From Arthrobacter sp. zg-Y844 (GTDB taxonomy: Bacteria; Actinomycetota; Actinomycetes; Actinomycetales; Micrococcaceae): DNA of 64,000 nt. The stretch spans positions 310,001 through 374,000 of the forward strand of contig NZ_JANFLS010000004.1 in the NCBI RefSeq assembly GCF_024385465.1, given 5' to 3'. Both the position numbers and the translations under genes were made by a program. Under the pieces are notes generated by a model, which was not told where the DNA came from, made no database searches, and was given only the letters and a program-made list of their open reading frames with translations. Shown one piece after another: positions 46,560 to 48,095 of the stretch. Each line of letters begins with the position of its first letter. Position 1 is the stretch's first letter.

Positions 46560-46619
46560 CCCGTCCGTCCATGACACGGCGGAAGGCTCCCGGCTGCATG
46601 CCCCGGGCGGATTCCCTCC

Positions 46620-46709
46620 GTTTTGGGAAAAGCCTGCCGGTTTGGGAAATCCCTGCCACTGCGCAGCGGAGGGATTTCCCAAACCGGCAGCAGAATCCCA
46701 AACCGGCAG
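46620..46709. repeat. Left inverted-repeat cluster flanking the AbiEi/DUF559 gene
   Basis: Two units of the form GGTTTGGGAAA-CCTGC lie in forward orientation, then two in reverse. Bases 46634-46654 are exactly complementary to 46670-46690, giving a 21-bp perfect stem with a 15-base loop. The reverse units AATCCCAAACCGGCAGCAG end 5 bp from the stop of the downstream minus-strand gene at 46715. The same repeat family recurs on the other side of that gene. This fills the gap between the GH2 and AbiEi/DUF559 genes. Confidence 0.9.
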
Positions 46710-46714
46710 CAGGA

Positions 46715-47659
46715 TCAGTGCAGCCGGCCGATACGGGGGAGTCCGGCGTGGATCATGCGGCGCACAAGGCTCTCAGGATGCTCAGGCGGACGGCCTATGT
46801 CGCTCCAAGACCAGCGGACAAACCCGACGCCGGTGGCACGGATGGCGTCTTCCCTCCGTTTTTCCCGGGCAAGGGTTTCCCACGACGGTGAAAGAGCAGA
46901 GCCGTTGGCGCCATATTTCACTGCACCGTCGAACTCCCCAACCAGCATCTGGTCCTTCCAGTAAAAGTCCGACCGAAAGCGCCCCACGGGAGTGCTGAAC
47001 TCCTGCTGGAGTTCCGGGGCAGGAAACCCTAATCGGTGCAGGACGGCGCGGGAATAGGATTCGCCGGCCGACTCGGAGCGGGAATCGCCGAAGTCAATTA
47101 CACGACGAGCTTTGGCCTGCTTGGTCCGGACAGGCAGTTTTCGGGCCAAGTCACACAGGAGCTCTTTGCTCACGGCGGGCATATTGCGGGCGGCGTCCCG
47201 ACGCAGCACGTGGTCCATGGCCGGAACTGCGCGCTCAAAGTCGAGATACGCAGCCATGTCCAACACGGTCTGTGCCCTGGAAGTGAGCAGCATGCCGTCG
47301 AAGGTTTCCAGGGGTTCCAGCAGCCTGCGTTCGGTCCACCGGAGGGCCCCGCGGCGCCGACCGTGGGAGGTGGAAGAGCCCAGCAGCAGTACTTCCGGCG
47401 ACGCCCCGATAAGGGGAAACCCCCAAATTGCTGCTGCGGACTGCTGAATGAGGACACGATGCCCGGGCACCTGTTCCACGGTCGCCCGTACACGGACCCG
47501 GTTCTGTTCCCAGAGGGGCAGCTGCTGCCACGCATCGGCTCGGACGTAGACTCCGGCACGTAGGCGGATCAGTTCACCAGCCCGGCACCGCAGCGCCAGG
47601 GAACGGCGCCCGGCACCGAAGGCATCGGCGTCGGCGGCGAAAATCAGTTCAGGATCCAT
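46715..47659 (-). CDS. AbiEi-like N-terminal domain plus DUF559 nuclease-like protein
   Basis: This protein of about 314 residues has an N-terminal region resembling AbiEi-type antitoxin/regulator proteins (ELIRLRAGVYVRADAW, SAAAIWGFPL, LTSRAQTVLDMA, residues 1-150) and a C-terminal DUF559/Vsr-like PD-(D/E)XK region (about 195-305: ESAGESYSRAVLHRLGF, RSDFYWKDQMLVGEFDG, REDAIRATGVGFVRWSW). The Asp and Glu of the nuclease core are visible. The start at 47659 (ATG) or 47677 (ATG) is uncertain; still longer frames run into the upstream repeats. This family is common and multi-copy in Micrococcaceae, with no known role. Here it is bracketed by the same short repeat family on both sides. Confidence 0.82.
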   Translation of the reverse strand: MDPELIFAADADAFGAGRRSLALRCRAGELIRLRAGVYVRADAWQQLPLWEQNRVRVRATVEQVPGHRVLIQQSAAAIWGFPLIGASPEVLLLGSSTSHGRRRGALRWTERRLLEPLETFDGMLLTSRAQTVLDMAAYLDFERAVPAMDHVLRRDAARNMPAVSKELLCDLARKLPVRTKQAKARRVIDFGDSRSESAGESYSRAVLHRLGFPAPELQQEFSTPVGRFRSDFYWKDQMLVGEFDGAVKYGANGSALSPSWETLAREKRREDAIRATGVGFVRWSWSDIGRPPEHPESLVRRMIHAGLPRIGRLH

Positions 47660-47748
47660 GTCCCCAAGGCTGGACATGCAGCAGCGGACCCGCGAGGGCA
47701 GGCGCCCCGTTTGTGGAAAACCCTCTGGTACCTCGGGCTGGAGAAGCC

Positions 47749-48095
47749 CTGCGGTTTGTCGCGATCCCTGCGGTTTGTGACAATTCCTGCGCCGCGCGGT
47801 GCGGGGATCCGGACAGACCGCAGGGATCCGGACAGGCTGCGGGGACAGGCCGCGGGGATCCGGACATGCCGCAGGGATCCGGACACGGTGCGGGGACAAT
47901 CCGCAGGGATCCGGACAGGCTGCGGGGACAGACCGCAGGGATCCGGACAGACCGCAGGGATCCGGACAGACCGCAGGGATCCGGACAGGCTGCGGGGACA
48001 GACCGCAGGGATCCGGACACGCCGGACAGGCTGCGGGGATCCGGCAGGAAAAACCCGATCCGGCAGGAAAACCCCGAACCGGCAGCAGAAACCCA
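47749..48095. repeat. Right repeat cluster upstream of the AbiEi/DUF559 gene
   Basis: Two forward units (CCTGCGGTTTGTCGCGATC and CCTGCGGTTTGTGACAATT, 47749-47790) are followed by about 13 reversed units from 47805 to 48036. Full units are 19 bp (GGATCCGGACAGACCGCAG and variants), and four 13-bp units lack the GGATCC part. Degenerate units with CGGCAGGAAAA run to 48095. Units abut without spacers. Together with the plain sequence around 47660-47748, this fills the gap between the AbiEi/DUF559 gene and the VOC gene; no coding sequence is seen. Confidence 0.92.

Follow-up and report, generated by a model that had tools for sequence, protein, structure and literature searches.

In the window that we analysed (a 64,000-nucleotide stretch of a 3.37-Mb genome, here called G000, whose nearest named relatives are Arthrobacter), a gene for an AbiEi-like, nuclease-like protein stands between two clusters of short inverted repeats. 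A preliminary description of this locus likened the arrangement to REP/REPIN elements tied to RAYT transposases, with a protein that is not a RAYT. The locus raises the question of whether the repeats belong with the gene that they flank and, if so, what the two might do together.

The gene and its flanking clusters

The features of the locus, in window coordinates, are as follows.

46618..46709, no strand: left (3'-side) cluster, 92 bp, with forward 19-bp units at 46618 and 46637, a palindromic centre, and reverse units at 46669 and 46688
46634..46690, no strand: perfect 21-bp stem hairpin of the left cluster, arms 46634-46654 and 46670-46690, loop of 15
46715..47677, minus strand: gene for the AbiEi-like/Vsr-like protein, 320 aa
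46718..47092, minus strand: C-terminal predicted Vsr-like (DUF559-like) nuclease domain, residues 196-320
47117..47650, minus strand: AbiEi-like part, about residues 10-187
47707..48094: right (5'-side) cluster as a whole, 388 bp, forward units and then reverse units of 19 and 13 bp
47707..47789, plus strand: forward units of the right cluster, degenerate at 47707, with units at 47752 and 47771
47712..47720, minus strand: DnaA-box-like TTTTCCACA, between the array and the start codon
47790..47801, no strand: palindromic centre of the right cluster
47802..48024, minus strand: reverse array of the right cluster, 19-bp units alternating with 13-bp units, copy spacing 32, 19, 32, 19
48035..48094, minus strand: about three further reverse 19-bp units of the left-cluster type

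The preliminary description had placed one family of units on both sides of the gene, with a switch from forward to reverse copies that makes hairpins, a perfect 21-bp stem on the left, and an alternation of 19 and 13 bp on the right. Each of these points was borne out, the switch being visible in the left and in the right cluster. The 21-bp arm is the longest perfect one in the window, against 10 to 13 bp in 20 mononucleotide shuffles (loop of at most 20). Folded as single-stranded DNA, the left cluster has a z-score of -8.2 (0 of 200 shuffles equal it) and the core of the right cluster one of -4.1 (equalled by 2 of 200). A loose pattern of the unit gave 40 matches across the whole window against 26.6 expected, a number reached by 1 of 100 shuffles; enrichment is only mild for this loose pattern and is clear at the scale of the genome. 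The left cluster, beyond the 3' end of the gene, adjoins a convergent gene. Known RNA families gave no match at the gathering score.

The gene is real, having an ortholog in 27 of the 28 same-genus genomes (G000 counted). Translation may begin at the ATG at 47659, because MxPEL opens most of the aligned orthologs. With the window protein (P0001) as the query, it was the single family gene found in G000. Its two neighbours in the window encode a GH2 glycosidase and a glyoxalase-like protein (Glyoxalase_3), and no DUF1814 toxin gene is adjacent. The site of the gene near the GH2 glycosidase gene is constant within the genus: in all 27 of the genus genomes that have the ortholog, it lies within about 1.1 kb of GH2, with another gene seemingly between the two in G002.

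The preliminary description had also called the product AbiEi-like and DUF559 nuclease-like. The AbiEi part of that name held up: PADLOC matched AbiEi over residues 14-183 (E = 2e-5), and AbiEi models were the only profile matches of P0001, although Pfam AbiEi_4 scored 16.9 bits, under its cutoff of 25. A model of the whole protein (mean pLDDT 88.6) found AbiEi (6y8q, E = 2e-4) and Rv2827c (1zel, E = 1.8e-3) as its first Foldseek matches, with low TM-scores by query (0.30-0.36). When the C-terminal domain was modelled alone (pLDDT 84.2), its matches were two mitoribosome chains first and then Vsr (1vsr/1cw0, probability 0.98-0.99, E = 0.018-0.024); it also matched the homing endonuclease I-Bth0305I (probability 0.97, E = 0.09). 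Residues E206, D237, E248, D250, K254, and E272 are invariant in 36 aligned sequences. We predict from these models that the domain is a Vsr-like nuclease, its activity being inferred. The Pfam DUF559 model (PF04480) did not support the other half of the name, since it rose above its cutoff in no sequence, reached E = 0.027 in 1 of 17 members, and gave 0 matches at E ≤ 0.01 in 36 sequences; a search of solved structures by sequence profile likewise gave no match. What supports the name DUF559 is the predicted fold and the motif; the Pfam model does not.

Matching flanks and repeat types across lineages

Flanking hairpins are present among the relatives as well, and their sequence differs between species. 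The left and right flanks of one locus nevertheless match each other. Over 30 loci (27 from the genus and 3 others), the left-right match scores summed to 1764, compared with a maximum of 1322 in 20,000 permuted pairings, and 20 of the 30 loci lay above the 95% point of shuffles (26), while 10 did not. A scan of named genomes yielded 61 loci, from which 8 that were cut short or partial (L097, L105, L107, L123, L124, L126, L127, and L128) were dropped; these 8 are absent from the flank matching, hairpin, control-window, and DnaA-box/spacing counts. The 53 named loci gave a sum of 2465, against at most 1568 in 10,000 permutations. A score of at least 35 was reached by 27 of the 53 and missed by 26; among control windows it was reached by 2 of 53 placed 1.0-1.45 kb out and by 0 of 53 placed 2.0-2.45 kb out. 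The nearer controls summed to 1326 (reached by 7 of 5000 permutations), and the farther ones summed to 1178 (reached by 4028 of 5000). No downstream partner repeat was found at L050, L052, L056, L058, or L059.

Counted as hairpins with at least 15 pairs in 19, two-sided flanks are frequent, not universal. In the genus, a hairpin lay upstream in 13 of 27 loci, downstream in 21, on both sides in 10, and on either side in 24 (control windows, 4 of 104); the flanks of the named loci passed the same threshold in 25 of 53 and 28 of 53 cases, against 27 of 318 controls. Covariation was scored in 23 gene-flanking hairpins (22 from the genus and 1 other). There, 83% of cells pair, a percentage biased upward because hairpin centres were chosen by self-pairing, and stem cells changed on both sides numbered 85, compared with 30.9 in shuffles and at most 24 in slid pairings. 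Repeats in the flanks are most often spaced 19 bp apart in three groups whose sequences are unrelated: the Arthrobacter set (127 versus 2 in controls), a more distant type (169 versus 3; the best spacing at 16 of its 24 loci), and Phycicoccus (32 versus 0). Other spacings occur: a third type, with 11 loci, has 31 first and 19 second, the A. castelli group of two loci has 39, and Micrococcus, which has few tandem copies, has 30.

We combined eight elements from eight distant genomes, chosen for their clear flanks, in a single query against the same eight genomes, some of which held more candidates than were scored, so that the counts are lower bounds. The best match in each genome was its own element. 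Flanking and further places of the own element numbered 2 and at least 5 in Phycicoccus, 2 and at least 3 in a Micrococcus MAG, 2 and at least 18 in A. castelli, 1 and at least 4 in Leaf141, and 2 and at least 1 in A. cavernae, while Hiyo8, A. alkaliphilus, and NtRootA1 had weaker or mixed further matches. Of these eight picked genomes, then, four have the element in several further places, a fifth in one, and three more weakly. Two elements of the Leaf141 type lie 1.1 kb apart in A. cavernae, and a family gene between them was guessed beforehand and then found (E = 3.6e-133). The protein that it encodes is 68% identical to that of Leaf141 and 37% identical to the other family protein of A. 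cavernae. Of five same-genome pairs, the two close paralogs (82% and 69%) have common flank repeats (scores of 74 and 102), and the three distant ones (28-35%) do not (24-28). Across 43 of the 53 loci (the rest were out of frame or had stops), protein identity correlated with cross-flank similarity (rho = 0.448; 0 of 2000 permutations), the mean cross-flank score climbing only from 21.6 to 31.8. As far as these sequence comparisons go, repeat type follows the type of protein and not the genome.

A search of plasmid records with the protein, which took no account of repeats, turned up three records at E = 1e-10; their hosts belong to other orders or, for Collinsella (Coriobacteriia), to another class. 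All three had matching flanks, with scores of 111 and 144 for two Tsukamurella genes (maxima of 200 shuffles, 31 and 43) and 86 for the Collinsella gene (28); these three genes were set against shuffles, not against other genes. Within the plasmid records, the Collinsella and Tsukamurella elements were found only in the gene's own record, at 5 and 3 places, so that dispersal away from the gene is not shown for them. In Collinsella aerofaciens (L251, NZ_OY725717.1), several TGTCTCGATCTGTAACATC...TGTTACAGATCGAGACA inverted elements can be seen on both sides of the family gene.

Dispersed copies, gene presence, and turnover

The unit CGGTTTGTNNNNATCCCTGC has 47 + 56 matches in G000 at up to three mismatches, against 9 + 8 for a reversed control, and 18 + 24 at up to one mismatch, against 0. 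There are 19 further clusters away from the gene (17 stretches were fetched). At up to three mismatches, 18 of the 19 keep the forward-then-reverse order, the exception being L023, where a stray reverse unit lies ahead; successive forward units begin at intervals of 19, and 30 separates the last forward start from the first reverse start. Six clusters lie between convergent genes, nine between tandem genes, and four overlap a crude ORF call; by these crude gene calls, none of the 19 lies between divergent genes. Of the 28 genus genomes, 6 have many copies of the exact unit (16-70 matches) and the remaining 22 have few (0-5). Another unit, TTTGGGTTTCTGCTGCCA, is present in two genomes, with 4 of 6 copies in G007 and 5 of 9 in G011 no more than about 150 bp from the gene.

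These counts bear on what the preliminary description had left for checking. A genome-wide excess of the unit was found, and family loci outscored their control windows. That the repeats are bound to gene loci stood in part: flanks match across lineages, including the three distant relatives, but in G000 the repeats also occupy the 19 places without the gene, as REPs do. The central idea, a REP/REPIN-like family tied to a non-RAYT protein, gained support from the matched flanks, from repeat type following protein type, and from the lack of any match to the Y1/RAYT transposase family (PF01797) in G000; 5 of 14 control genomes were positive. A RAYT acting in trans was ruled out on that last result, PF01797 being the only transposase family looked for. 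No phage copies were found at E = 1e-5.

Individual clusters vary in form. At L034 (G000 C4:83102-83285), a reverse unit occurs five times at intervals of about 40 bp, separated by G-runs, and copy number is different in the orthologous clusters of G027 and G012. At L161 (G012 C11:336649-337321) and L131 (G027), the whole element is found at intervals of about 200 bp (four times over in G012), which suggests tandem duplication of the complete element.

Counts of elements were compared among genomes with a covariance model, R1, trained on the gene-flanking hairpins of the Arthrobacter group (both strands, strict filters). The 27 genus genomes with an ortholog have 6 to 65 matches, and the gene-less genome, G009, has 1. 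Elsewhere, G031, of another genus and with a similar unit, has 40, and the other 30 genomes have 0-3. Because G034 and G036 carry orthologs (43-45% identity; flanks of another type or unclear) and yet give 0 and 1 matches, R1 appears blind beyond its own repeat type. Within that type, abundance of the repeat accompanies presence of the gene, on the evidence of only one gene-less genome.

G009 has no ortholog, merely a distant match (E = 2.2e-7), and both the gene and its hairpins are absent, with other DNA between the GH2 and glyoxalase-like genes. Its sister in a GH2 tree is G026 (support 100/99), which has R1 elements at eight places against one in G009 that is common to both. Five G026 elements could be located in G009: four are absent (three with shorter DNA, one replaced), and one is unresolved, the flanks at the compared sites being 81-99.6% identical. 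We also considered import of the element sites with their flanks into G026, and rejected it, because at the four resolved sites the flanking DNA of G026 mostly resembles that of G009 more than that of G027 or G012; for the same reason, loss of the elements in G009 is the simpler reading, even though the G026 gene groups with those of G015, G027, and G012.

Turnover of the elements is slow, since most compared sites are common to G000 and G027/G012; changes in unit number are seen between orthologous clusters. At one site (L133), G027 and G012 carry an element that G000 lacks, the flanks being 94-95% identical, and at another (L142), G027 has one and G012 differs; no target-site duplication is visible at either. 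A G000 element in L024 was thought private, and this was rejected, as the region aligns through in G027. Repeats also persist beside seemingly broken genes, whether by natural decay or by assembly error: the gene is in two pieces in G012 (C15:36912-37858; 70 unit matches in the genome) and in G026 (C6:629046-629991), and it has a stop in L064 and L120, with repeats beside it.

A proposed two-part system and its rivals

The anatomy of the locus, the matching of its flanks, the drift of the unit between lineages, its dispersal, the correspondence of repeat type with protein type, and, in one sister pair, the absence of elements along with the gene are all demonstrated by these comparisons. The account that we think probable is of a two-part system, RAYT/REPIN-like with an unrelated protein, in which binding, cutting, and spreading of the repeats by that protein are inferred. 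One part would be the fixed-site gene, whose product joins a putative AbiEi-like DNA-binding module to a Vsr-like nuclease. The other would be non-autonomous palindromic elements, inverted 19-bp units around a palindromic centre, lying beside the gene and scattered elsewhere. The AbiEi-like module would recognise the cognate unit, an inference from AbiEi and Rv2827c, whose own promoters contain 23-bp inverted repeats that they bind (PMC7319586). The nuclease would then nick or cut at the element, perhaps as a hairpin or single strand at replication, and repair or copying would keep, expand, and occasionally spread the elements. Fusion of such a module to a nuclease, together with inverted 19-bp units at the gene and elsewhere, suggests both unit recognition and palindrome cutting. 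We favour, with somewhat less assurance, the broader proposal of a phylum-wide class, independent of RAYT/REPIN, in which AbiEi-like/Vsr-like nucleases maintain and spread their own lineage-specific palindromic elements and several such pairs may share a genome without crossing.

The same binding data could be read as pointing to regulation, with the protein an AbiEi-kind repressor, the 5' repeats its operators, and the scattered repeats a regulon of binding sites or decoys, nothing being mobilised and the nuclease fold lying idle. The resemblance of the window protein to both AbiEi and Rv2827c would fit, as would lineage drift of the unit if operator and repressor changed together. We nevertheless judge this unlikely, as matching repeats also lie past the 3' end, by the convergent gene, the nuclease-type residues are invariant, and no G000 cluster was placed between divergent genes; also unlike operators are the arrays, the varying number of units, and the sites that carry an element in one species but not in another.

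A homing or gene-drive system has a weaker claim still. The nuclease would cut alleles or genomes without its own repeat type, the gene and flanks would replace them, and scattered copies would be by-products of repair. In the protein tree, G026 groups with G015, G027, and G012 (100/100), in conflict with its place beside G009 in the GH2 tree, a difference that makes exchange of the locus between species probable. With relatives that are 88-95% identical in GH2, identity of the protein is just 63-76% (over 26 genomes, identity to G000 is 55-76% for the protein and 65-95% for GH2), and the predicted fold resembles that of I-Bth0305I. The gene seems to outpace its neighbour in divergence, and allele exchange could equally cause the low identity; rapid change without exchange would also yield it. 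Homing targets usually span the insertion point, but the repeats here lie beside the gene and not across it, and the site of the gene is constant in the genus. Identity of the protein to that of G000 stays at 55-76% irrespective of GH2 distance.

That the repeats are bystanders, ordinary REP-like intergenic repeats or terminators spread by an unknown enzyme and settling between genes, is a reading that the window genome alone would permit, with its 19 clusters away from the gene and many of them near gene ends, and one that the comparison across lineages strongly disfavours, since it leaves unexplained the matching flanks in lineages with unrelated repeat sequences, the three out-of-sample relatives of three, and the following of protein type by repeat type.

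The two-part system that we propose can be set beside three known ones. RAYT genes are described as flanked by inverted REPs, changing together with them, evolving faster than neighbouring genes, and linked to REP number (PMC2817692), as single copy and vertically inherited (PMC8049555), and as having REPs arranged in inverted doublets (PMC3116915). The likeness extends to a fixed-site gene between palindromic inverted repeats, flank repeats that differ among species and stay paired, repeats scattered genome-wide and few where the gene is missing, and a gene diverged more than its neighbour. Unlike a RAYT, the present protein is AbiEi-like and Vsr-like, without a Y1/HUH transposase domain; its basic unit is a 19-bp repeat, found also in tandem arrays; vertical descent is less strict, and mobilisation is inferred. 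With the AbiE type IV toxin-antitoxin system (AbiEi antitoxin, Rv2827c) it shares the resemblance of its N-terminal and middle parts and inverted repeats near the gene, which AbiEi is described as binding; it differs in its extra C-terminal nuclease-like domain, in having GH2 and Glyoxalase_3 as neighbours in place of a DUF1814 toxin, and in repeats on both sides and genome-wide. As for Vsr/DUF559-like nucleases and I-Bth0305I, a likeness is suggested by the predicted C-terminal fold, whose Vsr matches have weak E-values and rank behind two mitoribosome chains, and by conserved acidic residues; Pfam DUF559 is not reached, a DNA-binding module is joined on, and a repeat family is tied to the protein.

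By analogy, the system appears to work in a RAYT-like way without being a RAYT. Its enzyme is unrelated to RAYT, so that the chemistry would have to differ, and we count it for that reason as a new kind of system; if any enzyme-repeat pair is one kind, it is a variant of that kind. Among the matches listed in a search of open-access titles and the starts of abstracts, which covered no subscription papers or preprints, none linked a dispersed repeat family with proteins of the DUF559 or AbiEi type. Should the proposal be correct, enzyme-repeat partnerships, for which RAYT/REPIN is the model of a domesticated enzyme with dependent repeats, arose more than once, and an origin would be offered for short palindromic repeats in actinobacteria without RAYTs. 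A testable role would also follow for genes annotated as 'AbiEi family antitoxin domain' or 'hypothetical', annotations that the out-of-sample genes carry. Because lineages have different protein-repeat pairs, specificity is directly testable with natural pairs.

A last observation concerns the DnaA-box-like motif upstream of the gene. The form TTNTCCACA, on the gene strand and within 160 bp upstream, occurs in 42 of 53 relatives and in 0 of 424 control windows. In that orientation it is absent upstream in Phycicoccus and Micrococcus. It is kept upstream in L068-L121 even where the repeat sequences are unrelated, and expression of the gene may be tied to replication.
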